Source: Scenedesmus sp. ARA3
Lineage: Eukaryota > Chlorophyta > Chlorophyceae > Sphaeropleales > Scenedesmaceae
DNA: 54,153 bases
Direction: 5' to 3'
Assembly (NCBI GenBank): GCA_004335835.1
Contig: RWJK01000199.1
Coordinates: 1-54,153, forward strand
The notes below the pieces were generated by a model. It ran no database searches and had not been told where the DNA came from. It saw nothing but the letters and a program-made list of their open reading frames with translations. This document shows, piece by piece, positions 736 through 49,729 of this stretch. Both the position numbers and the translations under genes were made by a program. Each line of letters begins with the position of its first letter. The first letter of the stretch is position 1.

Positions 736-3173
736 CTATCTGTTTGGTCGATGCATTGCTGGCATGAATGCAGACGCCGCAGGCTTGTAATATAACGCAG
801 CTGCCGCCTTGTCTGCAGTTGTTATTGTGCGTGGCTTGGCAGTGCCGCCGCTGGGAGTCATCAGGTTGGCAGAGGCCTTCACCCCAGTGTCTGTCCCATC
901 GCTGCTGCTGTGGAACTTGGTGCCATTGCCGCTACTGCTGCTGCCGTTGCTGCTGTCCGACACGACTTGCTGCAGCGGATCTGCTGCTTTGGCTGCTAGC
1001 TTTGCTGGCGTCGAGCCACTGATTTTAAGCTGAGTGTACCTGCAAAATCAGCCGCAAAGCAGGCAGGCAGACAGGCAGGCAGGCGATTGGTGAGTGGCAG
1101 CAATGCAGCTTCAGATGCTGTGGTAGGTACATGTTGCAACAGCTGAGCTGCAAGTCACACAGCTGACTAAAGGCTGCTTGTTGCAAGGGCAGCAAGCACA
1201 CACGCTATCATCCAGGCGCACGCACTGCTGCCTATAGTTCATACGAAGCCCTCATCACCCAGCCCTGCATCACTTACCAGATGATGCCTGCCATTGCCGC
1301 GCTCACTCCCAGCAGTCTTAGGCGGCATCTCGCCACCCCACTCCATCACATTCTATAACTTTGAAAGAGGTCTTGCAGGCATCACATATGCTCAAAGGTC
1401 GACGAAGACATGGACAAGTAAACACAGACGCAGCAGATGACACACACATGCTGCTGCACATAACCCACCACACCTGAAAACCACACAGAATCACTCACCA
1501 AATGATGCCTGCCATCGCCACGCTCACTCCCAGAAGCTTCTTAGGCGGCATCTCATCCCCAAAGAACAGGCAGCCGCCAGTTAGGATGATAACCGTCTTC
1601 AAATGGCCCACCACATTGTAAGTCAAGCTGCTGGTGCAGCCGATCACCAGAAAGGTGCTCAGGCTCACTAGCAGGCCCAGCAGCGCACTGACAACGATTG
1701 CAGCTACTGCTGCAGGCGTGTAGTGGTAACTAAAGATGGTCTTGCCTGAATCTGCTGCTGCTGCGCTGCCAGTCAAGCTCGCCCAGCCGACAGGCTCCAT
1801 AAGAGGGATGAGGCAGCCGAGGATGATTGCTGCTTGGGGCGTATACTGGTGCAGCAGTTGCATGCTGCTTGCCTGTAGCTCCTTCTGCTTGCTGCCTGCC
1901 CACATCTGATACAGCGCTGTTACCAGGGTTGCTGCTAAACCCACGAAGAGCCCGGAGAGGTTGCTGATGAGCTTGCTGTCTGTTACGGTGGCGATTCCGA
2001 TGCCTAGGCACACCAGCACAACTGAGGCGACAACCTAAGCAGCAAAGAAGATGGAGAAACATGGACAATTGAGCCTTTGACCATGTTTGACCGGAAGCAG
2101 CACATAAGATGACATGCCGCAGGATCACTGACAGGGCAACAGCAGTGACAGTGACTCACAACTGCGCTGAGAGGCGTGAGGACAAGTGCAGTTCGAAATC
2201 TGGCAGCAGCTCCTGCTGTGCTTGCAGCGGTGCTTCTTGAGCACACACAGGCTTTCAAATCTTTGCAGCTGCTGGTTGTTGGCGAGACATAAGTGGGGGC
2301 CACACTGAAACACCTAACTTCATTGAAAGTGTGCATGTGCAACTGCAAGGACCTTACCTTGGGTGCTGGCACGTTGCCAAAGAAAATGAGGTCCAGCAGC
2401 ATGACAGTTGGCGCCACCGCAATCTTCATCACCTGGGGTAACACAGACAGCAATGCACACACTGCATTGTCACATATGTTGGCGCAAACAGCTGCAGCAG
2501 CTGCAACATCCCGCAAGCTGCGCTCCTGGCAGCTGTGTCTTGCAACAAACACGCAAATTGCATCGTGCATATTGAGGCACACTACAGCTGCTTGCAGCTC
2601 CTGGCTGCAGGAGAGTGACGACGCAAGGGTGCCTAGCACGGCACCGAGCAGCACGTATGCTGCAGCAGCTGCTGCTGTCAGCTGCTCACCTGGTAGAAGC
2701 CCACAGTGTTGACCTTCAGTGACAGGTTACACAGCACGATGTAGCCCACGTAAGCAAACGCCAGCGGCGCCACTTGCCGTGCTCGTAGCGACTTGTGGCT
2801 GAACATCCCAGCCATCAAAAACAAACGCATGCCCACCTGCAGTGCGACACATTGGCAAAAGATCGTCAGCATGCCGCGACATTGAAGCGGAAAGTACGTT
2901 TAGTGCATCATAAGGGATGCTGTCAGCTGCAGTAGTAAGGCAAAAGCCACAGTACGCTGCCAGACACAGCTGGGCATTCAGCAGCTGCTAGATCATCATC
3001 CTAAATGGCAACTACTGCAGTAGTGGTGCTGCAACCAGTGCGCTGGATGCGCGTTGACCTGAACAAGCAGAACCAGCATTGCTGCTGCTGCTGCTGCTGC
3101 TGCTGCTATGCTGGACACAGCAATGCTGCTGCCAAAAACACAATGCTGCCTGCTGCAGCTACGCTTGCCGGGT

Positions 3174-3206
<33 letters not shown>

Positions 3207-3346
3207 GCTGCTGCCGCTGCTGCTGTGCGCACCAGCGTGAACAGCGTGTGGATCCATGTGAGGGTGCATGTGAAGCCAAAGCCATAATTGCTCATCACAA
3301 GCTTGTTGGCAAACACTATGCCACTGGCAGATGCTATGTTGAGCGC
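736..3346 (-). CDS. SLC35E3-like nucleotide-sugar / TPT-family transporter (5' end incomplete)
   Basis: Multi-pass membrane transporter of the drug/metabolite superfamily (TPT domain), expected in Golgi, ER or plastid envelope membranes, where relatives exchange nucleotide sugars or sugar phosphates. Exons in coding order: 3233-3346, 2690-2836, 2358-2432, 1499-2034, 736-1039. All junctions are GT-AG and the phases agree, giving 391 codons plus stop from this point. Diagnostic segments are ALNIASASGIVFANK in the first helix, NLSLKVNTVGFYQ, then ALYQMWAGSKQKELQ followed by SMQLLHQYTPQAA, and TYNVVGHLKTVIILTGG near the last helices. The ALYQMW...KQKELQ...SMQLL block fits the SLC35E3 / plant UXT-like branch better than plastid phosphate translocators. 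The tail is a Ser/Ala-rich cytosolic extension. The initiating exon is not established: a short Met exon at about 3587-3611 exists, but it joins in phase only by skipping ALNIA. A degenerate copy of the fourth exon's 3' end lies at 1274-1335. Substrate cannot be inferred. Confidence 0.8.
1274..1335 (-). repeat. Decayed tandem copy of transporter exon 4 3' end
   Basis: This stretch repeats about 60 bp of 1499-1560, including the end of the coding exon and a functional-looking donor (gtaagt). Relative to the true exon it carries a 1-nt deletion that destroys the GDEMPPKKLLGV reading frame, so it lies in the intron as a relic or decoy donor. Confidence 0.75.
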
Positions 3347-6844: not shown

Positions 6845-6992
6845 TGTGATTGTGGCAGGATTGGTTGAGGAGAAGGACAGGGCAGCTGTTTGTTGCTGGG
6901 AGGCGTTGCCATTTTGCGCGTCAGACCATGCACGCGATTGCACATGCATGTTGGCTTTCCTCCATCCTGCACCTGCTACTGTGTCCTTTCGT

Positions 6993-7040
6993 GTTCTGCA
7001 CCTGTTCCTGCAAGCCGTTCTGCACCTGTTCCTGCAAGCC
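6993..7040 (+). repeat. 24-bp unit repeated twice in the 3' UTR
   Basis: Two perfect adjacent copies of a 24-bp unit beginning gttctgcacctgttcctg (6993-7016 and 7017-7040), just downstream of the single-exon gene. Recent short tandem duplication of the same style as elsewhere in the window. Confidence 0.85.
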
Positions 7041-8335: not shown

Positions 8336-8684
8336 ATGGGGTGCGTACGCCAGCTCAGCATGCTTCTACATCGTAATAGTTTGTCAAAATCGTCAGGAGT
8401 ATCAGGGCTGATGCAGCACGAGCAGGACCAGCCTCTGCTGTCGCTGCTGCTGCTACAGCAGCTGCTGCTAGCACTGTTGTGCTGCTCCTGTGGTGCTGCT
8501 GTTCTCTTGTGGTTGAACACTGACTTGCGCTACATACCATCATATATAATATGTTTTATGCAGGGTTCCTGGCCTGTTCAGCTTCCTGCGGAGGCGCTAC
8601 CCCCAGATATGCCGCCCCACAGAGAAGCGCAGGGAGGGGCAGCCCCGCAGCGACAGCGACACCACAGACAACCTGTACATCGGT

Positions 8685-8732
<48 letters not shown>

Positions 8733-11700
8733 GTAAAAGGTAGAACACATGGGTGACGTGCAGTTTATTACAATGATACTGCTGCAGCAGCTGCACACAC
8801 ACCACACTGTGAGTGCAATGTCAACTCGCACTTTCCATCAGCTGTTAGCAGCTGCCATTTCAAGTTCGCTGCACCTGCCATTTATTCCTTTTGCGCCCTC
8901 GCAGACATTAACCACATCATCCACTCCTGCACCCACCCCACACTGTGCATGCAACTTCCACTCACACAATCCACCAGCTATAAGCAGCTGCCACTTTAAG
9001 TCCCTTTGCACCTGCCTGTTTTCCCTGCGCCCACGCAGACATGAACCATATCATCCACTCCTGCACGCATGCTTATGTGGCCAAAGACCGCCCCGAGGGC
9101 CTCAGCAGGCAGCAGCAGCTGGGGGGCATGGCGGCCTACCTGGAGGCCCTGCTGGACCTGCTGCAGCCGAGGTAAATGCAGGGCTTTGCAGGTTGTTGAA
9201 AGGGTTTTGCAGGGTTCATTGGGGTGTGTCAGGGGTCCAGTGTTGTGTAGGGTTATGCAGCGTTCACCAGGTTGGGGTCTGGCAGGGCCTCAGCAGGCAG
9301 CAGCAGCAGGGGCATGGCGGCTTACCTGGAGGCCCTGCTGGAACTGCTGCAGCCAAGGTGTGCAGAGTTGATAAAGGGTTTAGCAAGGTTGTGCAGCGTT
9401 CTGCAGGGGCGTGGCAGGGTTTCAGAGTTCAGTGTGGCAGTCACAGCGCATGGCGGCGTACCTGGAGGGCCTGCTGGCCCTGCTGGCGCCGAGGTATGCA
9501 GGATGGCAGATTTCAGCAGGGTTGAGATGCGTTGATGGCTGGCTGATGGGAAGCTTGCAGCAGCTGCGCCTGCTGCTGGAGCATGTTCAGCTGCATCATG
9601 CTGCGGTGCAACAGTTATTTTGACAGACCTGTGTCACCACATCTGCTGACGACACAGCCCCCCTGCTGCTGCTACTGCTGCTGCCGGTGTGGCCAGGCGT
9701 GTGGTGCTGATTGCTGTTGATGGTGTGGCGCCGCGTGCCAAGATGAACCAGCAGCGCACGCGCCGCTTCCTGTCTGCCCACATCAGCGACATCACAGATG
9801 GCATTGGTGACCTCCTTGTGTGTGTGTTCGACCATCATCAGCATCACAACAGGAGGCAATGTGGCACGCAGCACTGTGTTTCAAGCAACATGAATATCGC
9901 AGTGTATGGGGTCTGAGACGCGGCGCAGCAGCAGCCACATGTGTGACGTCAAAAGGCTGCTGCTGCGCCTGCATCTTTGCTACACCCCTAATTGTTCGAT
10001 TGACAGGTGCACATTTTGAAGCCGCCCCTCACGTAACCTGACAAAGTAACACAGGTAGCTACCCTCCTCTTCTCAAGATGCCGTGTATTTTGCTGCACAT
10101 TGCTATTTGTGGCGAGGAGCGATAGGCGAGGCGTGAGGTGCTGACAGAGGCTGATGGGCGCATCGCTGTCAGACACACACCCTAAGGCGTATAGTCACAT
10201 TGCCCAGTTGTGACTTCTGGACTGTATCTCATGCAGCACTGCCACTTGTGCTTTCATGCAGAGCGGGAGGTGAAGCGAGAGATGCTGTCAGAGGCTGGTG
10301 GCGCCATTGTCATTCCAGACGTGACACGCTTTGACTCCAACATCATCACACCAGTGAGTTCTCATTGTTTGACCGGCCAGTGCATGTGCCGTTTGACCAG
10401 ACAGTAGATCTAATTTTAGCACCATTGTCATCTCAGAAGTGGCGCGGTTGCCCTCTTAACATCATCCAGCGAGTGCCTGTGTTTGACCACCGGGTCAAGC
10501 CACCAACAGCTGTCGCCATGCGCTTGCGCATGGATAAAATGGCCCCAGCAGGTCACCACTGTAGGGTCAGGTGTTCATGGTGCTTCGTGTTACACTGGCT
10601 GCTGGGCTGATTTGTGTGCAAATAATCCCTGCTGCTGCAATGCTCTGCAGGGCACCGACTTCATGACAGAGCTGGCGCAGTGGCTGCGGCAGTGGGCGGC
10701 TGACAAGGCAGCAAACGACCCCCGCTTCAAGCACACCACCTTCATCATCTCAGGTAAGCAGCAGACGGCAGCACAGCGCACCTGCATTGCTTTGTCGGTT
10801 TGTGTGCCGCCAAAAACCTGGTGCCCTGGCACGTGTCCATTGAGTGCTTGACATCAGGATTGGCACGCCGACTGCATTCCTGCAGCGCCTAGATTCCTCT
10901 CTGGATGTGCTGGATTCACACATCAAAGTCTATCATAGCCCCTGATTGCTCCTTCTGCTGCTGCAGATGCCTCAGAGCCAGGTGAAGGCGAGCACAAAGT
11001 GATGAAGTTTGTGCGGCACCTGAAGGCCCAGCCTGGCTACGACCCTGCCACGCGCCACGAGGTGTACGGCCAGGATGCCGACCTGCTGCTGCTGGCGCTG
11101 CTGTGCCATGAGCCCTACTTCAAAGTCATGCGGGAAGACATGCAGGGCGGCGAGGTGCGGCTTTTTACATGCTTTTTGAAAGTGCAATACGTTCACCAAC
11201 ATCCTGGAAAGATTAAGCTTGACAATCAAGTACCAGCACACTGCATAACTGCTGCTGCTGGTGCTGCTGTGCCTTGAGCCCTAGTCGAAGTGGTGAGGGA
11301 GGACATGCAGGGCGGCGAGGTGCGCTGGCCTTCATTGTATGCAAATCAGGTGGTGCTGCTGCAACTGCTGCAACTGCTGCTGCTGCTGCAAAGCGGCTGC
11401 AAAGCTGGGTTGCCCTTCCCTGGATGCCTGAACATGACAAATGTGAGAGGATAGTTGCATGTAGGTCCTGGCACCATCAGATGGTATGCACGTGATAGTG
11501 TCTTCTGTGGCTACGTTCGCCTGTCTTTGCAGGCAGCCAGCAGCAAAGCCGCCAAGGAGGCACAAATGGCTCAGGAGCAGCAGCAGCTGCTGCAGCTGCG
11601 ACCCCTCTCAGCCGTCGCCGCAGCCCTGCAGCAGCAGCAGCAGCCCGGCACTGCAGACCTGCCGCCGCTGCCGCTAGTACCGCAGTCGTGCGGCAGTGAC

Positions 11701-14700
11701 AGCAGCCGCAGTGCGGTTGAGCCGTGCTCGGAGCACCTGCACATGCCGTGTTTCGAGACTGTGGACATTGCTGTTTTGCGGGAGTGCCTGCAGTGGGAGT
11801 TTTCTGAGCTAGTAGGGCCTCCTGGGCCCCCTGGCATGTATGGCAGCGATGAAGAGGATGAAGTTGATGATGATATCGAAGATTCAGAAGCAGATGCAGA
11901 GCCAGAGGTAGATACTGTTGGCGCGGAAGAGGGATCGGAGGGTCGGGATGGTTTAGTGAAGGCAACAGCTGAGGCAGGTGCAGCAGCAGCAGCTGTAGCA
12001 GCAGCTTCACAGGCAGCTGCACAGGAGTCCAATGTAGCAGCAGGCGTAGATACAGCAGCAGGGGCAGATGCAGCAGCAGCCATTCACGCAGGAGCAGCTG
12101 AGGTACAACAAAGCATCCACCATGCAGCAGCTGACGCAGCTCAGGCAGATGGTGTTAAGGCAAACAGCAGGCAGCCGACACCTCTGCATCTGCAAATAGG
12201 TGCTGCTGCTGCAGCAGCAGCAGCCACCAGCAGATTGAGCCCAACTGAGTTAGATGACTTGCCAGAACCAGTTGGTGACGAGGATGCGGGTGATGATGAG
12301 TCATCGGACGAGCTAGGAGACCTGCTGGGGCTGGCCCTGCACACCAATAGCAGCAGCAGATGCAGAAGCAGGGATGGGCACACAGCAAGCCCAGCAGCAG
12401 AAGTAGCACCAGGGGTGGCGTTGGTTTCAGCAGCAGCGCTTGCAGCAGCAGCAGGAAAAGCAGAAGAACAGCAGGCAGTGACAGCTGCAGCAGCGCCTAC
12501 CACACAGCCTGCTGCTGCTGCTGCCGCCACTAGTGCAGCTGGTTTGCGGCTGCCTCCACTCCTGGGCCTGCCACCTCACCTGGCAAAGCGTATAGTGGCA
12601 GAAGCTGGCTTTGAAGCATCTGCGCCGGCAGCTGCAGATGTACAAGCAGCAGCAGCAGCAGCAGCAGCAACTGCACAGCCTGCAAAAGCACGGCAGTGCA
12701 GCACAGCAGCAGATGTAGGCACGAGTATTCATACTGGTGCTGAACCTATAGCAGACAGCACTACTGTCAACGCTGCTGAAGCAGCTGTGCTGACAGCTGC
12801 TGGTGGGACAGCAGGCACGGCTGCAGCTGCAGCTGCTGACAAGCTACCCTCTGTGGCAGGAAGCAGCTGCAGCAGCAGCAGCAGCAGCAGGGAGGGACCT
12901 TCAGAGGCTGTCCAAGATGCAGCAACTGCAAACACGGCTGCAGATGGTGACAAAGCAGCAGCCAGTCAGCAGTCAACTGACACCAGAGACACAACCAACA
13001 GCAGCAGCGGCAGCAGCAGCCGAGGCGGCGACAAACCAGCAGCTGCAGCGAAAGTCAAACAACGGTCAAATGACAGCATCACAGCAGGCAGCAGCACGCA
13101 GCGGCCACCAAAGCAGCGTGGCAAGGCAGGGCTGAGCTTTGAAAGGCTGCTGGATGACTTGGTGGTGCTCAGCTTCTTGGTGGGTGTGTCTGACCGGCGT
13201 CTGACCGGCGTTTGACCAATGTTTGACCATTGTTTGACCGGTGCTGGGAAAAGCAGCAGTGCTGATACCGCCAGTGTGTCTTCCAGCTGATATGAGACAC
13301 TGCGCTTCCACACTGTTTTGTTTGAACACCTGCTGCTGTGCTGTGGCTTTCTGGCTTTGATGCCTTCGCAGGCCGGCAACGACTTCCTGCCCAACACACC
13401 CTCTTTAGTCATCTTTGACAAGCCTTGCGGCCTGGACCTGCTGTTGTTTCGCCTATCGGAGCTCTACACTTGACTGAGGTTGACTGCTGGGCGTTGACCG
13501 TTGCTGTGCTGCCGCTGCTGCTTTGCCACTGTCTTATCCTGCAGGCCGGCAATGATTTCCTCCCAAATGTACCCTCCATAGACATCTACAGCAAGCCCTG
13601 CGGCCTTGACCTGCTGTTCACCGCCTACAAGGCGCTGCTGTTAGGCATGGGCGGGCACCTGACCAGCGGCGGAACCATCAACCGCAGCAGGCTGGTGCAG
13701 CTGCTGGTGTTCCTGGCAAGAGATGAGGAGGCAGCATACAAGCGGCGGGCGGTGAGACATTGAAGTGCTTTTAAGTGTGGTGGAGTGCAGTGGGTGTAAC
13801 TGAGATACAATGCGGTAGCAGTGCACTTGCCTGCGGGTGTAGTGCCCCGCAAGCACAGCAGCTTGTTCCCCAGCACATACCCCCATATTGCCCCTCATCA
13901 CGGCATTTACATGTTGTACACAGTGAGCGGGGCTTGTCATTGTGTATTTCATGTCATATCGTCATTCTAAACTGCTGTTCACACCAATTCTTCTTGCTTG
14001 CAGGACTACCGCCGCCGCCGCGCGCAGCAGCGGCACAACGAGCAGGCGGCAGCGCAGCAGCAGCTGTCATCCCTTCTGGATGGTGGCCTCAGCATGGGGG
14101 AGCTGCCCCCTGGCATTGACCTTGATGCTCTTCTGTCAGGGCTGGACCCTTCCGTGGCCGAAGCGCTAGGGCTTAGCGGGTGAGGCGGCTAGAGTTTTTG
14201 ATGTTTGATCATTTTGGATGGCGGCCTCAGCATGGGGGAGCTGCCGCCTGGTGTTGACCTGGACGCTCTTCTATCTGGGCTGGACCCTTCGGTGGCTGAG
14301 GCGCTAGGGCTTAGTGGGTGAGACGGCTAGGGTTTTAGGTGTTTAGCCTGAATTTGGGTGGCGGGCTCAGCATGGGAGTGCTGCCGCCTGGGGTGGATTT
14401 GGATGCGCTTCTATCTGGGCTGGACCCTTTCGTGGCTGAAGCGCTAGGGCTTACCGGGTGAGAATGGCAGAATGAATGGCCTGGTCACATATTTCAGCTG
14501 GCGCAGCCATCACTCTTCCGTAGCCATCCACATATGGCACAGACTGGTTCTGTGCGCATAGCGTAGCAGCTCAACTGCAGCTGTTTATTTGGTTTTGTTG
14601 CACCGCCACCTGCCCGCCTGCAGCATGTCTGACAAACCCCCTCCACCTGACCTCACCACTCTGTCGCCTGGTCAGCTCTGTGAGGAGCTCGCGGGGCGTT

Positions 14701-16903: not shown

Positions 16904-16950
<47 letters not shown>

Positions 16951-18787: not shown

Positions 18788-18819
<32 letters not shown>

Positions 18820-20168: not shown

Positions 20169-20190
20169 NNNNNNNNNNNNNNNNNNNNNN
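20169..20190. other. Assembly gap (22 N) flanked by an inverted repeat
   Basis: Run of 22 N. The bases before it include agagggtgtg and the bases after it start cacaccctct, which are reverse complements, so the unresolved bases probably lie in or near a hairpin loop or a purine/pyrimidine-biased tract. Confidence 0.95.
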
Positions 20191-27012: not shown

Positions 27013-27013
27013 T

Positions 27014-36800: not shown

Positions 36801-39800
36801 TGCTGCGCCTGCCGCATCTGCCCCAGCTGCCGCTGCAGCAGCGCTGCTGCTTCATCAGACTGGCGCTGCGCGGTGCGTGCCGCTGCTGCTGCGCGCTCCA
36901 GATCGCGGATGTACGGCTTCTGGCGGGCCACCTCGGAGGCAAGGCGCTCACACTCCAGGCTGAACCTGCAGTGTGTGGTAGAGCACGTGTGTGTGGATAG
37001 ACTTCAAGAGGAGCGAGAGAAGGACGTAAATACATATATCTGAGATGTGCCTGCTCCTTTTAGGGTCAAGCAGGGCCCAAAGGGCAACAGCAAGGCAGGC
37101 AGATGTTGGGCGCCAACAACAGGTCGCGGATGCATGCGGATGTATGGCTTCTGGCGTGAAACCTCGGAGGCGAGGCGCTCACGTTCCAGGCTGAACCTGC
37201 GCATGTGAGGAGAGCAGCTGTTGAAAGTTTGGCATCTGGAGAAAACACAAAGCAAAGTTAGCTGTACTACCCAGGTGCATCACCGTGTACATCGCACCGT
37301 TGCCAGCGCGGCACAAACCAACATTGCAAAACGGACGCTCAGCAGTACACCCTTGTCACTCCCTCTCTGTCCTCTCTGCCACAAACACACCTCTCCTGAT
37401 CCTTCAGTGCCTCCTGCAGCTGCTGCTGCAGCCCCTCCCGGCCCGCAACAGTAACAACATCTTGGCAAAAAGAGACCACCTCGCCATCCCAATTGTTTCG
37501 TTAGGCAAGCCCTGTCTGCCTCTCTGTTGCTGCAAACATGCGCACCTCTCCCGCTCTTTCAATGCCTCCTGCAGCTGCTGCTGCAGCCCTTCCTGGCCGG
37601 CTGCTGCAGCAGCCTGCTGCGCTGCTGCGGCTGCCTGCTCTGCTTCCTTCAGCGCATGCTTGAGCCTGGCAACTTCACTGGCTGTGCGCGTTTGCGCCTC
37701 CTTGTGCCTTGCCTCCAAGGCAGGGATCTCCAGTGCCCGCACATCCGCAAGCTCGGCCTGCATGTAGTTCAAAATGTTGATGCGCAGCAAAGTGCAGATG
37801 GTTGTGTGAGATGAAGCAGAAAGAATATGCCTGCTCGGCTTCCTGCAGCGCATGCTTGAGCCTCGCAACTTCACTGGCTGTGCGCGTTTGTGCCTCCTTG
37901 TGCCTTGCCTCCAACGCAGGGATCTCCAGCGCACGCACACCTGCTAACTCAGCCTGTGTGCAATGCAACATTTAATGTTGATGAAGCAGCGCCAATTAGG
38001 CTGTGTTTATGTTAGAAGAGAAACAGCTGCTGCATTGTTGCACTGTCAAGATACGGCACATAGTGTGGCGCTGCTTTGCCGTCAACGTGCAGGACATGCT
38101 GCATTCCTTGCACACCTCAGCAGCCCGGCCCACTTCAGAACACCCCAACAACTGCACTGCACAAACACACGCACCTTCACACGTGCAACCACCCGCTGCG
38201 CGTCTGCTGCCTGCTTCTCAGCTCGCGCCGCATCGCCTGCGCTGCGGCCAGCCTCCCTCCTCAACTGATCCCGCTCAGCCAGCAGCTGCGCCATGAGGCT
38301 GTCCCTGCGCTGGTACTCGCGCAGCACCTGCAGGGTTGCATAAACAGGGTTCAGCGCAGGGCAGGAATCAGAAAGTCCATTAAGTGATCCCGCTCAGCCA
38401 AAAGCTGCGCCATGAGGCCATCCCTGCGCTGATACTCGCGCAGCACCTGCATGCGGCGAAAAGATGTGCGGTTGTTTATCAGGGTCCAGCAAGCAGTGTG
38501 CAGGCAGGTTTTGCATGCGGTATGCAGACACGAGGCCATCCCTGCGCTGATACTCGCGCAGGACCTGCAAGGATTGAGGATTGGGGTACAGCACAGGGCA
38601 GGAGGATTCAGCTCGGTTGTTGATGTGCTCCCGCTCAACCAGCAGCTTCGCCATGAGCCCGTCATGGCGCTGATACTCGCTCAGCACCTGGGGCCAGTTT
38701 GATATGTTGTGGTTCAGCACATGGCAGGGTTCACGGTGGGGTTTCAGGGACACACTGCTGCAGCATGGCAATGCTGCTGCCTGCGCAACTGCAGATCATG
38801 CATCCCATGCAGTCCAGCCAACTCGGTTGGTTACCGTGCTGCCACCACACGCTCACCTGAGACAGGGTGTCATGCAGGGGCCCGAGCTCAGGCAGCAGCA
38901 CACTGCCGACACCATCACCCACTGCTGCTGCTGCTGCCGCTGCTGGCGCCTGCAAGCTGAGTGGCTCAAAGCCTGCCATACTCAGCTGGCTGCTCAACTG
39001 CTGCCAGTCAACCGCAGGTGCAGCAGCAGCAGCAGTACCACCACCACCACCAGCAGCAGCAGCAGCAGCAGCGCCTGCTGCTGGAATCCCTGCTGCCGCT
39101 TCCTCTTGCTGCTGCTGCTCTGTAGCCACCACCTCCTGCTCTGCTACTGCTGCTGCACTGCTGCCAGTCACAGCCGGCCCAGCAGCAGCAGCAGCAGCAG
39201 CAGCAGCTGGATAGCTATATTTTGCAGCTTCATGCACCTCCAGGGCACTGCCGCCTGCACTGCCCCACTCACCACCACCTAGAGCACCACCACCTACAGC
39301 ACCCTGCAGCAGCACACCAGCCGCAGCAGCAGCAGCAGGCAGCCCAACACCCTCCCATGCCTCGGTGGCACCTCTCGGTGCTGCTGCTGCTGCTGCTGCT
39401 GCTTCAGCTGCTGCTGAATATTGCACTGCAGCTGCATCACCATCACCACCTGCAACAGGCTGTGCTGCTGCACCGCCTTCATTCCAGCCAAGGCCCCACT
39501 GCTGCTGCTGCTCCTTCTCTTCTCCCTCCTCCTCACTGTAAATAGGGTTTGTAAAAGCACCCGGCCTTGGGCTGACTGGACCTGAGGCTCTGCCGCTGCT
39601 GCTGCCGCCGGCCAGCAGCGCTGCCACCGACGTGCTGCTGCTCTGCTGCTCCAGCTGCTGCCGCACCTCCTGCAGCTTCTGCAGCGCCTCCTGCAAGGCA
39701 GGAGAGCGGGGAGACATAGCCTGCTGCTGCTGCTGCTGCTGCTGCTGCTCGGCAGCGTATTGCTCTGGTCGCAGGGTGAGCTCAACAGTCTCCTCCTGCT

Positions 39801-41608
39801 CCTCATCTTCTTCCTGCTGTTGCTGCTGCTGCTGCAGCTGCAGGCTGGCCTGCTTCAGCACTCCCCGTGTGGGTGAGCTGGCCTCTCTGTGCCAAATCCT
39901 GCCTGGCGACGCCTGCTGCTGCTGCTGCTGCTGCTCCAGCTCTACGCTCAACTGCTGCTGCTGCTGCTGCTGCTGCTCTTGCGGGCTGCCTGGCAGCTCC
40001 ACAACAACATCCTGGCTGATGAACAGCACGCTGCGCTTGCTGCTGCGGCCGTTGCCACGAGGCGTGTTTCTGCCTGAAGAAGCGGCAGAGGCGGAAGCAC
40101 TTGCTGCTGCTGCTGCTGAGTGCTCCAGTGCACCATGTGGCTGCAATTGCAGCGGCGGAACACGTGTTGCTGCTCGTGAACCTGCTGCACCTGCTGCTGC
40201 TGCTGCCATGAATGCCCCATACAGAGGCTTCTTCACACTCGGGCTGTCAAAGTCGCTGCTGCTGCTGCCAGCGCCGCCTGCTGCTGCTGCTGCTGCTGCT
40301 GCCAGCTGAGCATCATCTGCCTGGGGCTGTGATGTGTGGTCTGGTGACACACCTGCTGAAACAGGCAGCGGGCTCTGCAGTGCTTGCAGGAGCTGCTCTG
40401 ACTGCACAATAAGCAGTACACTATCACCACCTGCAGCCTCACCCACTGCTGCACCTGCCGACTCACCCTCACGTGCTTGTGGCTGCACAGGGAAGTTTGC
40501 AGGAGGCGGGCTGACTGGCGAGTCCAGCAGCTCCTGCAAGCGCTGCTGCTGCTGCTGTTGCTGCTGCTGGGCCCAAGTGCCCCGCATTGCTGCTGTTGTG
40601 CGGGGCGAGCCTGCTGCTGCCACGGCCCCTGCAGCTCCTCCTCCACCAGCAGCAGCAGTAAGCATGTCTGTAGGCGTGCTGCTGCTGCCATAGCCGCCAC
40701 CGAAGCTGAATCCCGCTCCGCCTGCTGTTGCCAGCTGGCTGGCGGTCTGCTGGTGTAGCTGGGTTGGCTTTCGTGGGCTGGCGCAGGAGCCAGACTCAGA
40801 CCCTGCTACTGCACCTTCTGCTGCTGCTGCTGCCTCTCTTGGTGAGCTTGTTTGTGGCCAGATGTTTGTTGCTGCCCCTGCATCGCCGCCACGCGGAGAC
40901 TGGGAAGGGGACCTCGACCTTGCAGCTGCCCGTGCAGCTGCGCGCGCCTTTGCAGCAGCAAAGTGTGCTGCAGCTGCAGCAGCGTCGCCCGGCGGGCTGC
41001 GAGGCTGCTGCAGGAACGCTCCTGCAGGCAGTGCGGCAGCAGGCCCTGCAGCTGTGCTGCTGCCTCCAGGGGATGAGGCAGGCGAGAGGGCATCCAGTCC
41101 TGCAGCAAAGGTAAGTCTGCTGCTATCTGCTGCTTCTGCTGCGCGTGCAGCCAACCCTGCTGCTCCAAGGGTAGCTTCTGCGGCCTCGGGTGTGCTGCTG
41201 CGTGAAGCTAGGTTTGCAGGACTTGCTGGGATGCTGCCTGGGTTCAAGAATTCAGGCTGTCCTCCGAAGATGTTGCCTTCTGTGCTGAGCCCTAGCCGGG
41301 ACAGTGGGGTAGCTGCTGGCATGGGGCTGGTCCCATCCTCTGTGAGGTTGTAGCGCTGCCTGAGGCCTGCATCAGTGAAAATGACTTGTATATGTTTGAT
41401 GCATGGAGCTGGAACAGACTTTTAGGATACAGACTTCCAGGAAGTGCTGCTGTCAGCAGTTCTGGTTGTACATGGTGGTTGCTGGTAGCCGTCTGATGTC
41501 ATGCAGGCACGGCACAGGAAGCAGAAACTATAACTGATAATCACCTGCCAGGAAGCCGGCCAAGTCATCGTCAGAATCAGCAACACTCTTGCCCCCTGGT
41601 GTGTCCAT
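27808..41608 (-). CDS. Large coiled-coil protein, centrosome/basal-body type, CEP70-like C-terminal half
   Basis: Seventeen exons in coding order: 41545-41608, 38857-41366, 38175-38327, 37546-37757, 36747-36965, 35264-36410, 34185-34464, 32846-33033, 32363-32503, 31625-31928, 31165-31275, 30583-30666, 30016-30255, 29306-29461, 28643-28770, 28187-28406, 27808-27924. All sites are GT-AG and all phases agree except exon 7, where the conserved frame needs 2 nt more (see findings); allowing for that the protein is about 2091 aa. The first 860 residues are Ala/Gln/Ser low complexity with poly-Gln runs. Residues about 860-1700 are coiled coil (VLREYQRRDSLMAQLLAERD, LERAAAAARTAQRQSDEAAA, heptad-rich exon 6). 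The remaining region is helical and less repetitive: VLVDLLQDVCVVLELRD, VPNLRKMAAVLAAIPKLEAF, VYVHYNELTNFFRALASLL, and a terminal VLPRYQRLASQLYERLRVV followed by LDDVLPAL. The last features recall CEP70-type proteins, which bind gamma-tubulin and microtubules at centrosomes; this is resemblance from memory, not a search. Alternative: another ciliary or centriolar coiled-coil family. Confidence 0.75.
28855..28925 (-). repeat. Copy of coiled-coil gene exon 15 5' end
   Basis: Repeats the acceptor and VYVHYNELTNFF-coding start of exon 15 (28770 downward) one unit upstream. It retains the tgcag acceptor but the coding sequence decays within about 60 bp. Confidence 0.8.
29621..29706 (-). repeat. 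Copy of coiled-coil gene exon 14 5' end
   Basis: Near-identical to 29376-29461 (VESEAIAAEELLAAAKGLMA), upstream in the intron. Only the downstream copy continues to a donor. Confidence 0.85.
30480..31040 (-). repeat. Copies of exon 12 and exon 11 3' ends of the coiled-coil gene
   Basis: 30480-30512 repeats the exon 12 end (MNPGTVPQ plus donor). About 30950-31028 repeats the exon 11 end (VPNLRKMAAVLAAIPKLEAF). Both lie downstream of their source exons in the introns. A similar copy of the exon 13 end is at about 29908-29945. Confidence 0.75.
31455..32045 (-). repeat. Copies of both ends of coiled-coil gene exon 10
   Basis: About 32005-32042 repeats the EIDMLQRKI start of exon 10 (31928 downward) on its upstream side. 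About 31456-31502 repeats its VEEYPRDVLVDLLQ end plus gtgag donor on its downstream side. Confidence 0.75.
32100..32440 (-). repeat. Three copies of coiled-coil gene exon 9 3' end
   Basis: The block encoding LQGDLADLQQELQ with its following residues and gtgcg donor (32361-32432) recurs at about 32233-32300 and about 32112-32172 with a period near 130 bp and increasing divergence. Confidence 0.75.
33360..34300 (-). repeat. Tandem array of copies of coiled-coil gene exon 7 3' end
   Basis: The exon 7 end (LRPVELVGLYESQREAVERE to the AAAKAE codons and donor) recurs at about 33880-33965, 33635-33705 and 33360-33440. Shorter copies with AVDRELAAAEAE and a gtgagg donor occur at about 34067-34100, 33760-33790 and 33490-33515. 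The higher-order period is 250-310 bp. Differences between copies fall mostly at third codon positions of the VELVGL frame. Confidence 0.8.
33969..34010 (+). repeat. Dispersed repeat copy 4 (GAGAGGATAG... family)
   Basis: Contains gagaggatagctacatgtgg followed by gtcctggcaccatcttagat, inserted next to one unit of the exon 7 array in an intron of the coiled-coil gene. Confidence 0.75.
34569..34640 (-). repeat. Copy of coiled-coil gene exon 7 5' end
   Basis: Repeats the start of exon 7 (34464 downward): same acceptor context gttataacgtgcc...ccag and VIKEERRLA...DKAAYARIRQAY coding. This copy has two more bases at the GCGCG site than the exon itself and so preserves the frame that the exon breaks. 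Confidence 0.85.
34899..35370 (-). repeat. Three copies of coiled-coil gene exon 6 3' end
   Basis: The segment encoding LTLEAAGARKEKELDALRER and its donor (35261-35345) recurs at about 35024-35098 and 34901-34965, downstream in the intron, with donor-like sequence kept in at least one copy. Confidence 0.8.
36640..37205 (-). repeat. Copies of both ends of coiled-coil gene exon 5
   Basis: About 37135-37200 repeats the exon 5 start (FSLERERLASEVSRQKPYIR versus FSLECERLASEVARQKPYIR). About 36646-36698 repeats its end (QQQEVEGLAAELKARHTV) with acceptor-like and donor-like flanks. Confidence 0.8.
37390..37955 (-). repeat. Copies of both ends of coiled-coil gene exon 4
   Basis: 37845-37955 is a copy of more than 100 bp of the exon 4 start (AELAGVRALEIPALEARHKE) with its own acceptor. 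About 37392-37440 repeats its end (EGLQQQLQEALK) with a gtgtgt donor. Confidence 0.85.
38270..38695 (-). repeat. Four copies of coiled-coil gene exon 3 5' end
   Basis: The block VLREYQRRDSLMAQLLAERD at the exon start (38327 downward) recurs upstream at about 38395-38448, 38530-38568 and 38638-38690 with period near 120 bp, each preceded by an AG acceptor. Confidence 0.85.
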
Positions 41609-44217: not shown

Positions 44218-47200
44218 ATGCCTGGCGACAAGCGGCCTGTGAAGGTGTGGATGGATCAGAAGGCTGGTGCATGTGTTGATCAATATTAATGACACAAAAC
44301 ATGCAACATACCAGCAAAGCCCCTGACTGGCATCAGTGCATTTCATGCTGCTGCTGTCACTGCCCACTCACTGTTTCACAATGACTCTGCCTCTGCCATC
44401 TGCAGGTGGTGACTGCTTCAAGTTTCCACAATCTGGAAAGGCTGAAAAGGCACAAAGTAGTGGAACATGTTGCCGCAGAAGCAGCAGGCAGCAGGCCAGG
44501 CGGCCAGCACCAGTGCAGGCCTGCCTTCAACCCCCTCAAAGCACCGTTCAAAACCTTCAAAGCACAAAAGGAGGCGTTTGATTTCCTAGACAAGCAGCCG
44601 TGTGCAGTCATACTCAGGTAGTGCACATAGACCCCAGCAGAAATACAGTGGCATGCAGATGTTGAGGCTGTGCTGTCAACGTATGTTTGGGACAAAGATG
44701 CTGCCACACAGACCATGCTCAGCTATAGATGCAAATCTTCCCCCGTCACCTCTCAGCTGTCGGATATTACGCCATTCAAGGCTTTTTTTCCTGGATGCAG
44801 CGGTTTATTTGCATGTACCACTGCTGCTGCCATGCACCCACCCATCCACCTGTATGTCTCCTCCTGCCTCCTATGCTTGCAGGACTTTTGCATGCGAGGT
44901 GTCAACCAGCGGGCAGCGTGTGTTCATTGTCAGCAGCGCAGAGCTGTTCTGGCAGCACTACAAGGCCCTGCCGCCTGCAGAGCGCCACCTCTATGAGATC
45001 ATTCGGCAAGCGTCACCTTGCCACCTCTATTTTGGTGAGCCTGGTGCAACTAGTGTCGAAGAACAGGCTTCCATTGCATACAACTATGATTGATGCATAT
45101 GCCGAGAATACCAAGGCAAACAGCAGTATGCAGCAAGCCCATGCAGCCTGCACTGTCCAAGCAACCAATTTTGCAAGAAGACTGGACATCTGCAGCGCCT
45201 GCCAACTCAAAGCCCTCCAGCAGTTGCTGCTCCCATCAACTACTGGTAGAGTCCATGGCCAGCTGCCAGCCTGCTTTACAGTGCAAATCCTTTGCCCTCT
45301 TCAAACACAACATAACATAACAAAATCTACCATCTCCTGCTCTGCCATCACTCCTGCAGACCTCGAGTTCTGCCCAGTCAGCAACCCTGGCCTCGATGGT
45401 GCCGCGCTAGTAGTGCCTGGTTCGTACTGCAAGCATTGTGCCCTGTTAAACCTTGAAGTTTGCCATCTCTGTCTGCTCTGCCATCACTTGCAGACCTGGA
45501 GTTTTGCCCAGCCAGCAACCCTGGCCTCAATGGTGCCGCACTCGTTGTGCTGCTGCTGGCCGGCGTTGCGCAGCAGCTGCAGCAGCTTTTCAACATCCCC
45601 TGGCACGACAGCTATGCTCTGGAGCTTGACTCCAGCACACCCAGCAAGTTCAGCAGGCACCTGGTGGTCCGGCTGCCTGGGATGGCCTTTGCTGATGCAT
45701 GCCACGCGGGCAGGTGAGCACATGCCTGTGTTGGTGATGGCTAGGGGTGCAGATGATGACGACAGCAGAGCACAGCGAATATGCGCTGTGAATTCAGATG
45801 CCAGCACACCCAGCAAGTTTAGCAGGCACGTGGTGGTGCGGCTACCTGGGATGGCCTTTGCTGACGCATGCCATGCAGGCAGGTGAGTGCGCGTGTGTAA
45901 ATGTTGTTGGCTGGTGCTAGGGGTGCATATGATTGCCACAGCAGCGTGCAGTCATGCCTATGGTCGGGGTGGTGAAATGGTGGCTTACTCAAGCCTACAA
46001 AGGCATGCTTTTCAGTGGCACAACCGTGCAAAACATGCAAGCACCCTCATTGCACCAGCAGGACAGTTTGTGACAGCGACTGAGCAGCGCATACACATCG
46101 CCACATCTACGGCCGCACGCTGCCTCCAATGCCTCCTGCTGTACCAGCTGCTGCGCACCATTATATGTCTGCTGCTGCACATCACCATGTGTCGTGCTGT
46201 AGGTTTGCTCGCCTGGTGCTGCTGCGGCTGTTGCAAAGGGGCAGCTCGCAGGCGGCTGGCCTGCTGGTGCGCAACAAGGATGGTGATGACTTCAGCACGT
46301 TTGTGGATATGGGCGTGTACACGCGCAACAGGTGGGTGCAGCAGGTGCAACCAACACAGTTACAGGGGTTCATGTAGAGCACGGCGTGGTGCCTGTGTGC
46401 AGCAGCGCATTGTGCAACAGGCTGGGGCGTGGGTGTGTGGGTGCTGTGCAACAAGCTGATGCTGCAGCGTGCAATGCAGCTGTTTGGGAAGAGGTAGCAG
46501 CAGCTCGCAGGCAGCTGGCCTGCTGGTGCGCAACAAGGACGGTGATGGCTTCAGCACGTTTGTGGATATGGGTGTGTACACGCGCAACAGGTGGGTGCAG
46601 CAGGTAGAGCACATTTGCAGGTGTTCATGCAGAGCTCCGCATGGTGCGTGCGCAGCATGCAACAAGCCGATGCAACAGCGTGCAATGCAGCTGTGTGGGA
46701 AGGGGCAGCAGCAGCTCGCAGGCGGCTGGCCTGCTGGTGCGCAACAAGGACGGTGATCGCTTCAGCACGTTTGTTGACATGGGCGTGTACACGCGCAACA
46801 GGCGGGTGCAGCAGGCGCATGTGTGACGGGCAGGGTGCAAGAGCACGGTGCAAGCGCAGCAGAACGCAATGCAGTGCTTGTAGATTATATTGCTGCGGTG
46901 TGCTTCACGTGTGCATGCAGGGCGTTTCGGCTGTATCTGTCAAGCAAGTTTGGCAAGACCGCCTGCCTGCGGCTGACCAACAGATTTGCTGGTGCAACCT
47001 TGGACCCTCAGGCTGCTTTCCACCAGCTGCTTATCTCTGTCTTGCACCACAGCAGCAGCAGCAGCAGCAGCAGCGCCCTGGGGCCACTGGCAGCAGCAGC
47101 AGCAGATCCAGCCGAGCTTGCGCTGCGGCGGCAGCAGCAGTGGCGCAGGACAGCAGCAGCAGCAGCAGCAGTCCCAGGCGGGACGCGCCGGCCTGTGTCG

Positions 47201-49729
47201 CTGCTGCACGTGCCTGAGCCCAAGTGGCAGCAGCTGCTGCAGCAGCTGCCGCTGATGTGGCAGACGGTGCCCATGCTGCTGCTGAACCCTACACCGCACA
47301 ACAGCTGCAGCAGCAGCCAGCAGCTGCAGGACGGCGAACACGGGCCGATGCAGGAGCAGCAGCAGCAGCCTGGGGGATGCAACGGAGGCTGGGGATCAGC
47401 AGGCCGGCAGCTGGGGAACAGAGGTCTGCACACAGCAGCAGCAGCTGGTGCTGTGGTATGTTACGGCCCCAGCCCATATCCGCTGCTGGAGCAGTTCATA
47501 ACCTCCATCTGCGTGCAGGTGCGGTTTGGTGGCAGCACAGCACATTTTCCATATCCATTGAACACTTCGCATCACCCGCATCAAAGCAAACGTGGCAGCT
47601 ATGCAAGTTCACATGTTGGACTCTGCGCGTGCCACGCGCTAGCACATGGCCTGCTGGGCATGCCACACACCCCTTTCACATCCACTCCCTGGCCGCCCTT
47701 GCAAGGTTGGCTGCTTACAGCATTGGCTGCTGACAGCGTGTGTGCTGAACTGAATGCAGGGGCTGTTAGCTATGTTGTGTGCTGCTGCAGGGTCGCGTGC
47801 AGGGGTCAGTGCGCAGCTGGCTGCGGTTGCCTGATGCTGCTGACCTTATCACTTTATTGCTGCTGCCTGTGGTGCTGCTGCAGGGTGGCGTGCAGGGCCA
47901 GGTGCGCAGCTGGTAACGGCTGCCTAATGCTGCTCAATTTATCACAATATGCTGCTGCCTGTGGTGCTGCCTGCAGGGTGGCGTGCAGGGCCAGGTGCGC
48001 AGCTGGCTACGGCTGCCTAATGCTGCTCAATTTATCACTNTATGCTGCTGCCTGTGGTGCTGCCTGCAGGGTGGCGTGCAGGGCCAGGTGCGCAGCTGGC
48101 TACGGCTGCCTAATGCTGCTCAATTTATCACTATATGCTGCTGCCTGTGGTGCTGCCTGCAGGGTGGCGTGCAGGGCCAGGTGCGCAGCTGGCTGCGGCT
48201 GCCTAATGCTGCTCAATTCATCACTATATGCTGCTGCCTGTGGTGCTGCTGCAGGGTGGCGTGCAGGGCCAGGTGCGCAGCTGGCTACGGCTGCCTAATG
48301 CTGCTCAACTTATCACTATATGCTGCTGCCTGTGGTGCTGCCTGCAGGGTGGTGTGCAGGGGGCAGTGCGCAGCTGGCTGCGGCTGCCGGGCAGTGTGGT
48401 GCTTAACATGAGGGGCAACCGCTGGTGCGGCAACGTGGAGCGGCAACACAAGTCCAACGGCGTCTACTACGTTGGTGAGTACCGTGTGTGCATTTGCAAG
48501 TGCGGCAGTTGTTGACAGAGAGTTTGCAACCAGTTGCATGCACTGCTACAGTTGTGGCGTGTGTTGGTGAACTTGGCGGTCTTGTCGTGTGTGTGCAAGC
48601 GCGGACACGGGTGATGCTGTGTGCGCTGTGTAACATGCGCAGCTGCAGCTGCATCGGCGTGTGGCTGGCTGCGGCTGCCTGGCAGTGCAGCGTGGTGCTC
48701 AACATGAGGGGCAACCGCTGGTGTGGCAACGTGGAGCGGCAGCACAAGGCCAACGGCATCTACTACGTTGGTGGGTGCAGCGTGTGGGCATGTGTGGTGC
48801 GTGTTTGTCAGTGCGTCACTCGTGCTGTATGCTCGCAATCCTGCCTTCTCAATGTTCCTAGTCCATACGCAGTGGACCTGTGGGAAGGCGTCTTCTACCA
48901 TGAGTGCTACGACCCGGAAAGCAGGAGCTACAGTTTACTCAGATGGGCTCACCCTGCTGCTGCCTCCGCGTCCTTGCTTGAAACCCCTCCCCTGTCCCCA
49001 ACACGCTGCGGACTCACCTTGCTCTGCTGAACCCGGCTGGCCCCTGCATACGCAGTGGACCTTCGGGAAGGAGTGTTCTACCAAAAGTGTTACGACCCGG
49101 AATGCAGGAGCTACCGCTCCGCCTGCATGCCGCTGCCTGCGGCTGTGTGGGAGAGGTACCGCCAGCATGCAGCAGCAGACAATGCTCACGTTCAAGTTGC
49201 AGCAGCAGCAGCGGCTACAGCTCGGCTAGCTGGGGCAGCTCCAAAGCCCACAGCGGCAGCGGCAGCAGTGCAGGGAGCTGGCACACATTTACAGCAGCAG
49301 CAGCAGCATCAGGCCGGCATGCAGGAAGCAACACTGGGAGCCGGCGCACACTTGCAGCAGCAGCAGCAGGCTGGCATGCAGGAAACAGTACTAGGAGCCG
49401 GCGCACACTTGCAGCAGCAGCAGCAGCAGTGCCAGGCGCAGGTGCCGGAAGGGGGTGCGGAGGAATGGGAGGATCAGCAGTGCCTGCAGCTGCTGCTGCA
49501 GTTTGAGGAGAAGCAGTGTACTGCTGTACAGCATGTTGAGGGTGATGCAGCAGCAGGAGGAGGGGCAGCAGCGGCAGGGGTGCGGCGCAGCTATTTGCTG
49601 CAGGAGGAGCAGGTTATGGCTGATGGTGCAGATGCAGCTGATGAAAATGATGAGCTTGATGAATACGAGCAGTGCCTGCAGCTGCTGCAGGAGGTGGAGG
49701 GCAGTGGCTGGGCCGGTGACACAGGCTGA
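44218..49729 (+). CDS. PRIMPOL: PrimPol primase-polymerase (CCDC111 / AEP superfamily)
   Basis: DNA primase-polymerase that reprimes synthesis past lesions in the nucleus or organelles. Eight exons: 44218-44244, 44406-44617, 44883-45034, 45494-45713, 46203-46331, 46921-47518, 48348-48474, 49056-49729; all GT-AG and in phase, 712 aa. Catalytic core: DLEF at 131-134 (two metal-binding acidic residues), SKFSRHLVVRL, and FVDMGVYTRNR with the third acidic residue at about D239. Zinc finger: C473, H480, C500 and C505, with the same CX6HX19CX4C spacing as human PrimPol. An Ala/Gln-rich insert interrupts the part before the zinc finger. The C-terminal tail holds two acidic segments with QCLQLL (about 620-640 and 685-705), candidates for RPA-binding motifs. 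Exon choice among duplicated copies was made by frame and family residues; for exon 8 the upstream copy lacks the last zinc cysteine. TGTAA poly(A) signal at 49839. Confidence 0.92.
45358..45420 (+). repeat. Upstream copy of PrimPol exon 4 5' end (DLEF exon)
   Basis: Acceptor plus DLEFCPVSNPGLDGAALVV coding, repeated at 45491-45550 in the true exon (DLEFCPASNPGLNGAALVV). It lacks the continuation into the polymerase core, so use of this acceptor would break the protein. Confidence 0.85.
45796..45886 (+). repeat. Downstream copy of PrimPol exon 4 3' end
   Basis: Repeats 45629-45720 (STPSKFSRHLVVRLPGMAFA, with the following codons and gtgag donor). The copy keeps the frame (STPSKFSRHVVVRLPGMAFA) and a good donor. 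Confidence 0.85.
46235..46808 (+). repeat. Three copies of PrimPol exon 5 3' end (third catalytic motif)
   Basis: The segment SSQAAGLLVRNKDGD through FSTFVDMGVYTRNR and donor (46241-46340) recurs at about 46497-46604 and 46708-46806. Copy 2 keeps a gtgggt donor; copy 3 has lost it (aacaggcggg). All three still encode the catalytic VDMGVYTRNR. Confidence 0.9.
47791..48440 (+). repeat. Seven-copy array of about 93 bp ending in PrimPol exon 7
   Basis: Units start at 47791, 47884, 47977, 48070, 48163, 48255 and 48348. Each starts with the exon-like GGVQGQVRSWLRLP coding and ends with a ctgc(c)tgcag acceptor. Five units are 93 bp and one (48163) is 92 bp. The last unit continues as the real exon 7. 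Unit 2 carries a TAA where Trp-Leu is expected. The single N at 48040 lies in unit 3. Confidence 0.95.
48040..48040. other. Single unresolved base inside the 93-bp array
   Basis: One N in repeat unit 3, showing that the assembler had difficulty here. Copy number of the array should be treated as provisional. Confidence 0.95.
48655..48775 (+). repeat. Downstream copy of PrimPol exon 7 3' end
   Basis: Repeats the VVLNMRGNRWCGNVERQHK segment and YYV donor region of exon 7 (ending 48474), including zinc ligands C and H, in the following intron with a gtgggt donor. Confidence 0.85.
48868..48945 (+). repeat. Upstream copy of PrimPol exon 8 5' end
   Basis: Acceptor plus VDLWEGVFYHECYDPESRSY coding, versus VDLREGVFYQKCYDPECRSY in the true exon. 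The copy has Ser where the fourth zinc ligand is required and lacks the long downstream frame. Confidence 0.85.

Follow-up and report, generated by a model that had tools for sequence, protein, structure and literature searches.

Why should the introns of a green alga carry copies of the ends of the exons beside them, and why should those copies differ from the exons in the way that one coding sequence differs from another? The question is raised by a contig of 54,153 nucleotides from Scenedesmus sp. ARA3 (RWJK01000199.1; C121 in this analysis), the whole of which is called the window below. It is one of 1,567 contigs in an 87.3-Mb assembly, and protein identity of the XRN2-like and PrimPol genes marks the genome as that of a T. 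obliquus-like alga. Three genes of the window, encoding an XRN2-like 5'-3' exoribonuclease (XRN), a PrimPol, and a CEP70-like basal-body coiled-coil protein (CEP70), have 39 introns between them, and 23 of these hold copies of an adjacent exon end. There are 29 such ends and 42 copies, bearing out the original prediction that exon junctions in several genes are duplicated into the adjacent introns. That the units are mostly tandem duplications across one junction, with the spare half lying in the intron, is well supported. What the original prediction missed is that the copies have diverged in the manner of coding sequence, which duplication and tolerance together do not predict. I propose, with a probability of about 0.4, that tandem duplication across junctions produced them and that their units derive from diverged coding alleles or have been exchanged with such alleles.

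The argument depends on gene models. A gene finder was trained on 304 kb of the same genome, and predicted exons that duplicate their neighbors were then removed by hand, leaving curated, copy-free models. Those for XRN, PrimPol, and CEP70 are open to a single terminal stop. The first 1403 amino acids of the XRN model are 96% identical to T. obliquus P0001 over 100% of the query (98% for the whole protein, over 1947 aligned positions), and the PrimPol model is 98% identical to T. obliquus P0121 over 100%. The 14 homologs of the CEP70-like protein (P0207-P0220) are more distant, with 34-49% identity, covering 74-100% of residues 1440-2091. Three further genes were picked for curation because copies are present in them, making a set of six: DHX8/PRP22 on contig C953 and, on contig C903, what I take to be HslU and plastid FBPase, named by family recognition from their open reading frames without a search. 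The DHX8 model has 1,200 amino acids, residues 498-1197 of which align to residues 516-1215 of human DHX8, 700 residues with no offset between the two proteins. The first exon of HslU is an automatic prediction.

An adjacent exon-intron pair was counted when its score exceeded the level under which 99% of 522 non-adjacent pairs from the same gene stay (window, 39 introns). The search covered introns, with further copies found by masking and searching again; for duplications inside exons, the six curated genes were each compared with themselves by BLAST. Self-BLAST matches with trinucleotide entropy below 0.8 were dropped as low-complexity, and the six-gene counts were also made unfiltered. A wider sample consisted of 250 kb of the 87 Mb, five 50-kb blocks on large contigs reached through a WD40 search and so not a random draw. 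Protein repeats and long arrays were excluded from it (C953 3600-5900; C903 15200-16000 and 39100-39600; C1435 23500-25000 and 43400-47000).

By this measure 29 of the 78 adjacent pairs in the three window genes lie above threshold, 15 of them involving the 3' end of the upstream exon and 14 the 5' start of the downstream exon (39 possible in each case), and every one of the 42 copies comes to within 0-4 nt of the splice site. Copies of 3' ends always lie downstream and copies of 5' ends always upstream, an arrangement that had been predicted and that holds for all 42 copies in the window. In the six genes together, 40 of 79 introns contain copies of 52 exon ends (26 of each kind). The copies number 78, with 77 within 4 nt of the junction and the remaining one at 24 nt, and only 5 of 1108 non-adjacent exon-intron controls are positive. 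Self-BLAST of the window gives 38 direct local pairs (less than 1.5 kb apart) against 2 inverted, and local direct duplications make up 13.4% of its bases.

The nearest units in the window are 101-307 bp long. In 22 of 28 of them the intron parts match in register above the 90th percentile of unrelated intron pairs, and it is because of this match that the copies are read as tandem units. Splice sites resemble one another, so that identity over the first 6 nt of intron is 0.90 against 0.82 in other units of the same type. From 6 to 12 nt it is 0.81 against 0.59, from 12 to 45 nt 0.71-0.76 against 0.65-0.66, and beyond 45 nt 0.65-0.67 against 0.63-0.64, near background. The intron homology spans 100-250 bp in some units and is invisible in others.

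Three other kinds of origin can be set aside. Duplication of whole exons, as in mutually exclusive exons, does not fit: the side of the exon far from the junction is missing from each of the 29 window matches and each of the 20 DHX8 copies. Introners or another dispersed element would not be confined as the controls require (5 of 1108), and the copied exon ends do not recur elsewhere among the genome matches listed; for the three stretches searched, those matches are triplet repeats, a TTTGACC array, and one dispersed 55-bp stretch (33957-34011). Nor are the breakpoints drawn to CAG/CTG, which is found at 39 of 51 of them and at 69% of exon positions overall (p=0.29).

How strictly do duplications keep to junctions? 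If units were placed at random, 17% would fall wholly inside one exon. Self-BLAST of the six curated genes found no exon-internal pair among 46 independent pairs, and unfiltered one of 53, a 57-bp array in PrimPol exon 8. The suggestion that local junction duplication is tolerated when the spare falls in an intron is thus upheld. Of 26 independent pairs in the window, 23 include coding sequence, the other three being two copy-copy pairs and an array at the end of XRN exon 13. In the sample, 43 of 48 pairs lie at junctions after exclusions and 5 are purely non-coding; without exclusions there are 55 pairs, 43 coding, 8 non-coding (one of them an HslU copy-copy pair), and 4 exon-internal. Simulated random tandem duplication puts 36-49% of detectable events at junctions, exon-internal and whole-exon events set aside. 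Junctions are therefore enriched, as had been anticipated, and part of the excess may stem from detection, since exon parts outlast intron parts and old intron-only duplicates are hard to see.

The copies themselves tell more than their positions. In the window, exon and copy differ at 63 first, 35 second, and 184 third codon positions, a third-position share of 0.65 (cluster bootstrap 0.59-0.70); DHX8 gives 17, 19, and 82, a share of 0.69. The six genes provide 73 copies for this purpose, the five of the PrimPol intron 6 array being left out (they are counted in the total of 42, in the window codon totals, and in the comparison with homologs). The differences number 94, 82, and 332 at the three positions. 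Counted by codon, 299 are synonymous and 156 nonsynonymous, and the 1,593 codons include a single stop. The nearest copy from each of 51 clusters gives a third share of 0.649 (0.60-0.69) and a ratio of nonsynonymous to synonymous differences (N/S) of 0.53. Under a simulated null, with constraint on the exon and a neutral copy, the two values are 0.453 (0.40-0.51) and 1.40 (1.10-1.68). The observed divergence falls between those simulated with a copy omega of 0.5 and of 0.2. By gene, the third share is 0.63 for XRN, 0.70 for PrimPol, 0.66 for CEP70, 0.69 for DHX8, 0.64 for HslU, and 0.44 for FBPase.

The intron parts provide a clock of sorts. They are clearly homologous in 16 of 51 units, with a divergence of 0.151 over 1,349 bp, and in those dated units there are 26 differences at first and second positions against 62 predicted for a neutral copy (p=2e-7). 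A mutational bias towards third positions is not the explanation: when substitution rates taken from the intron parts are weighted by composition, the third position comes out as the least mutable. The coding-type signature is strong in five of the six curated genes, and the claim goes no further than these genes. Since the divergence is mostly synonymous, most of it probably built up during a time when selection on the protein acted on both sequences.

Third-position divergence is also homogeneous, at 0.18 over the 51 clusters (p=0.18), and likewise in the 28 window clusters (p=0.33) and in 42 clusters from four genes (p=0.39). With 42 clusters the power of this test is near 1 against ages ranging from zero up to twice the mean and 0.53 against ages between half and one and a half times the mean. 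Copies compared with one another, in 19 pairs from 11 families in four genes, have a third share of 0.60 (0.53-0.66), though the paths between them may run via the exon lineage. In multi-copy families their third-position divergence is 0.24, about as large as that between copy and exon. Three-way counts of unique changes depend on the branching order and were not used as proof.

Which side has changed? The exon agrees with the closest homolog at 23 of 24 amino-acid differences in XRN, 14 of 17 in PrimPol, and 22 of 41 in CEP70, so most of these differences lie on the copy side. Some copies are altered at residues kept in all compared homologs: H235L and D812V in XRN and C505S in PrimPol. At three XRN or PrimPol sites the closest T. 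obliquus protein matches one copy rather than the window exon; there the T. obliquus state is in the copy.

These observations could be brought together as follows. Short tandem duplications arise across exon-intron junctions, fill-in and end joining of staggered breaks being a plausible general route to the first of them. The copy still attached to the remainder of its exon is predicted to go on being spliced, and the spare, which lies in the intron, consists of an exon end, its splice site, and some intron. The spares would then behave like a small tandem array with one coding member, and would have been joined from, or repeatedly exchanged with, divergent coding forms of that exon end. The exchange may run through unequal recombination, between alleles or between units of the array, that moves ends between coding and intronic positions. 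A shorter period of decay within the intron would follow. Recombination of this kind fits divergence that is homogeneous and mostly synonymous, copies that differ from one another, and later decay. A bolder extension is that introns are standing reservoirs of exon ends, which swap position or sequence with the coding one or are at times translated, so that intron sequence would come under protein-level purifying selection and exon ends could be replaced from intronic stock. I regard this extension as possible and on balance doubtful.

Several results weigh against exchange with coding alleles. The FBPase copies look neutral (a share of 0.44 over 25 differences). On other contigs, 40 coding pairs with automatic models have a third share of 0.50 (0.45-0.56), closer to neutral; the same automatic procedure gives 0.63 in the window against 0.67 with curated models, so annotation error covers only part of the gap to 0.50. 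Third-position divergence in that automatic sample is heterogeneous (p=0.02), with 8 of the 40 pairs at 0.05 or less. Exchange is not directly seen: the clustering of third-position differences is weak (p=0.037), and stretches of identity are no longer than chance would make them (p=0.90). As for the duplications, the intron parts of 6 of the 28 nearest window units are indistinguishable from unrelated introns, and the averaged match is down to background level some 45 nt from the splice site.

The simplest account is that plain tandem duplications occur at random positions, are kept if the spare is intronic, and then decay neutrally. Duplicates of 100-300 bp would often span a junction, and the exon half would stay recognizable longest. 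The simulated 36-49% comes from geometry alone, and the near absence of exon-internal pairs is what selection would bring about. Signals in the copies have eroded: donor GT is retained in 33 of 41 downstream copies (four of the eight lost are now GC) and acceptor AG in 29 of 32 upstream ones. A net frameshift is present in 16 of 73. A neutral pseudo-exon is not rejected for FBPase, nor clearly in the automatic sample. However, a third share of 0.65 and an N/S of 0.53 fall outside the simulated neutral range, first and second positions have changed 26 times rather than 62, and purely non-coding pairs are scarce in the sample (5 of 48, or 8 of 55 without exclusions). Neutral decay after duplication is hard to hold, failing as it does in five of the six curated genes, and I consider it unlikely.

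An alternative view is that the copies are translated where they lie, as small alternative or added exons reached through a cryptic second splice site, in the way that potato RdRp gained an intron. Such use would account for codon-level constraint with one stop in 1,593 codons, the gene finder trained on this genome calls several copies in-frame mini-exons, and a published junction-crossing duplication did become a new intron and exon (PMC4974935). It is awkward because a downstream copy of a 3' end cannot join the rest of its exon. The copied segments are not seen as repeats in annotated T. obliquus proteins, whether XRN (three of three, two of them shorter models) or PrimPol (one of one), those annotations being predictions. 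The changes at H235, D812, and C505 fall at residues common to all compared homologs, and frameshifts (16 of 73) and lost donors (8 of 41) are frequent. Reading through in frame from exon to copy finds no clear excess of suitable units, 11 of the 28 nearest window intron parts (counted by eye) being multiples of three. Translation in place is accordingly improbable, more so than neutral decay. Judged from their sequence, many copies are probably not working alternatives at present. The notion that introns serve as maintained stores of decoy splice sites also fares badly, with GT gone from 8 of 41 donors.

It is more improbable still that the assembly has concatenated diverged haplotypes or strains, each copy being the other allele. 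Such an error would explain allele-like, homogeneous divergence, it could be limited to introns, the parts in which haplotypes are most unlike, and the contig does contain a 22-N gap and a lone N in a 93-bp array. But copies differ from one another about as much as from the exon, so two haplotypes are insufficient, and CEP70 exon 7, with its three copies, presents four mutually different versions of one exon end. Changes at residues common to all compared homologs and frameshifts also speak against it, and no second locus is among the matches listed for PrimPol, XRN 13360-15340, and CEP70 28100-34500. Three genes on one contig have a single cluster within 89 predicted introns, and exon-internal pairs number 0 of 46 against 17% of random placements. 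Copying targeted to junctions, for example break repair templated by nearby pre-mRNA or gene that inserts exon ends into the adjacent intron, has equally poor prospects: intron-only and intergenic duplicates are few (none in the window discounting the copy-copy pairs and the XRN exon 13 array, and in the sample 5 of 48 with exclusions or 8 of 55 without them) and the averaged similarity does fade about 45 nt into the intron, but intron-only events of the same age may be undetectable and the strict direct order follows from tandem duplication without targeting.

The XRN gene (8336..19943, plus strand) has 17 curated exons, and 6 of its 16 introns contain copies, all on the plus strand. The 5' end of exon 3 (9039-9069) is copied upstream at 8905..8935 and its 3' end (9096-9171) downstream at 9284..9357, with the donor GT retained, and again at 9448..9493. 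The 3' end of exon 7 (11083-11154) is found at 11249..11319 and the 5' end of exon 9 (13545-13618) at 13372..13445. Exon 10 has two copies of its 3' end (14074-14179), at 14212..14317, in a unit of 138 bp, and at 14355..14457. The 5' end of exon 11 (14825-14899) is copied at 14624..14698, the 3' end of exon 15 (17872-17915) at 18067..18110, and the 5' end of exon 16 (18515-18566) at 18394..18445, as 52 identical bp. These are the seven exons originally named for this gene. A perfect plus-strand array of 35 bp x 3.2 begins with the last 3 bases of exon 13 (16624..16734), each unit having CAG followed across the junction by GTGAG.

Other features of the XRN gene are of a different kind. Intron 15 contains a 77-bp inverted repeat at 18132-18208 (93.5%), the clearest non-triplet inverted repeat in self-BLAST. 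The 22-N gap lies just past the gene, at 20169-20190. Conserved genes such as XRN2 have very long Ala/Gln/Ser-rich stretches built of CAG/GCA-type repeats (11533-13179, 15772-16626, 38857-41366); two T. obliquus annotations, P0002 and P0003, lack much of those in XRN, possibly from annotation or strain variation. The window contains 18 instances of the heptamer TTTGACC, 17 in predicted introns; shuffling leads one to expect 3.2, and the highest count in 100 shuffles was 7. It often stands in short tandem runs in the XRN gene, with window sites at 2076-2092, 10368-10488, 13211-13239, 15177-15236, and 18449-18470. It is also raised on C903 (16, 13 in introns) and not on the other four blocks.

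The PrimPol gene (44218..49729, plus strand) has 8 curated exons and copies in 5 of 7 introns, again on the plus strand and at all four exons first named: 4, 5, 7, and 8. Exon 4 has its 5' end (45494-45550) copied at 45360..45416 and its 3' end (45632-45713) at 45801..45882. The 3' end of exon 5 (46241-46331) is copied at 46500..46590 and at 46711..46801, where the donor is now GC. Upstream copies of the 5' end of exon 7 (48348-48388), with its acceptor, form an array of 93 bp x 6.6 at 47779..48388, of which five were counted, and the 3' end of the same exon (48373-48474) is copied at 48664..48770. The copy of the 5' end of exon 8 (49056-49114) at 48873..48931 has Ser in place of a Cys common to four compared orthologs. 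The lone N is at 48040, inside the 93-bp array. The 57-bp array of exon 8 (49273-49428) is in frame, with about 2.6 copies, and is the sole exon-internal tandem duplication in the six curated genes.

The CEP70-like gene (27808..41608, minus strand) has 17 curated exons and copies in 12 of 16 introns, all on the minus strand. The 5' end of exon 3 (38263-38327) is copied at 38382..38446, 38529..38564, and 38626..38687. Exon 4 has copies of its 5' end (37632-37757) at 37828..37953 and of its 3' end (37546-37601) at 37391..37446; exon 5, of its 5' end (36905-36965) at 37136..37196 and of its 3' end (36747-36809) at 36633..36692. The 3' end of exon 6 (35264-35372) is found at 35020..35127, having lost its donor GT, and at 34903..34962. 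The 5' end of exon 7 (34392-34466) is copied at 34564..34636 and its 3' end (34185-34268) three times, at 33878..33961, 33623..33706, and 33364..33443. Two copies of the 3' end of exon 9 (32363-32416) lie at 32235..32287 and 32108..32173. Exon 10 has copies of its 5' end (31886-31924) at 32004..32041 and of its 3' end (31625-31674) at 31457..31505. The 3' ends of exons 11 (31165-31235) and 12 (30583-30616) are copied at 30958..31028, the donor now GC, and at 30482..30515. Finally, the 5' ends of exons 14 (29371-29461) and 15 (28706-28770) are copied at 29615..29705 and 28848..28911. The original list for this gene thus stands for exons 3-7, 9-12, 14, and 15, while exon 13 is below threshold.

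Between two copies in CEP70 intron 7 lies the dispersed stretch of about 55 bp (33957-34011), present in at least 34 other places in the genome with about 90-98% identity. It is also found at 21-68 and 11445-11478 (XRN intron 7) and once on C903, and is possibly a small mobile element. Two more genes of the window had been spoken of. The transporter is involved, as stated, through one minus-strand copy, at 1269..1331, of the 3' end (1490-1554) of a long exon, in the next intron. The NHL gene has no copies, also as stated, but in place of the seven introns it was credited with, the automatic model gives 12.

Genes differ greatly in the number of copies. Some 13% of the window, and of the blocks on C953 and C903 (where the figures include protein repeats), lies in local direct duplications, compared with 4.4% of C1435 and 1.9% of C1548. 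Their number per intron is overdispersed among 40 predicted genes with 432 introns (p=8e-5). Automatic models of CEP70, DHX8, XRN, and HslU have 0.35-0.41 clusters per intron, and many genes have no copies at all. Three adjacent large, intron-rich genes on C1548 (200001-250000; L019-L023) have 89 predicted introns with one cluster inside, two more pairs extending past the predicted ends. Neither base composition (p 0.08) nor intron length (p 0.30) is a clear predictor of which genes are affected; the automatic coding score is a weak one (p 0.016).

Are there precedents? Gao and Lynch (2009) reportedly found short internal gene duplications to be frequent, including partial exons and introns. 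They are not known to have described copies confined to junctions in about half of a gene's introns, nor coding-type divergence of a non-coding copy. In potato RdRp, a tandem duplication unit crosses one intron-exon boundary, with ten nucleotides differing between the copies (PMC4974935). It resembles the algal units in crossing one junction and carrying splice signals along. The potato case is one gene with a new intron supported by RNA-seq, whereas the alga has 52 exon ends in six genes, exon-exon similarity not beyond control, and copies that are not in the annotated proteins compared.

The AGGT model of intron gain by tandem genomic duplication (Rogers; Hellsten et al.), for which the table of a review gives 188 unambiguous events (PMC3443670), is alike in that a local tandem duplication sets a second splice site nearby. 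In the model, an exonic AGGT is duplicated and the stretch between becomes an intron; in the alga, existing introns are lengthened and exon structure is unchanged. Exons on either side of an intron are alike in 2 of 79 adjacent cases against 15 of 554 non-adjacent ones, giving no sign of intron gain, and the likeness first drawn to that process does not hold up. As to how the duplications begin, fill-in by CST-Pol alpha with end joining at breaks yields small tandem duplications in mammalian cells (PMC8355091). It shares with the algal units short direct tandem duplication with no mobile element, and it would be a plausible route in the alga. A search of the open-access literature found no account of exon-end arrays in introns or of this pattern in Scenedesmaceae, which is not proof of absence.

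For those who annotate this genome there is a warning: a gene predictor trained on it calls many of the copies real exons. For the biology of the alga, if the duplications are as described, a mutational process known mostly from isolated cases has affected about half the introns in certain housekeeping genes, which would provide dozens of natural replicates in the choice between true and duplicated splice sites, in the lengthening of introns, and in the clutter of splice sites. The coding-type divergence of non-coding copies, if true, would be evidence of recurrent exchange between exon and intron, testable in a culturable alga with strain genomes and RNA-seq.

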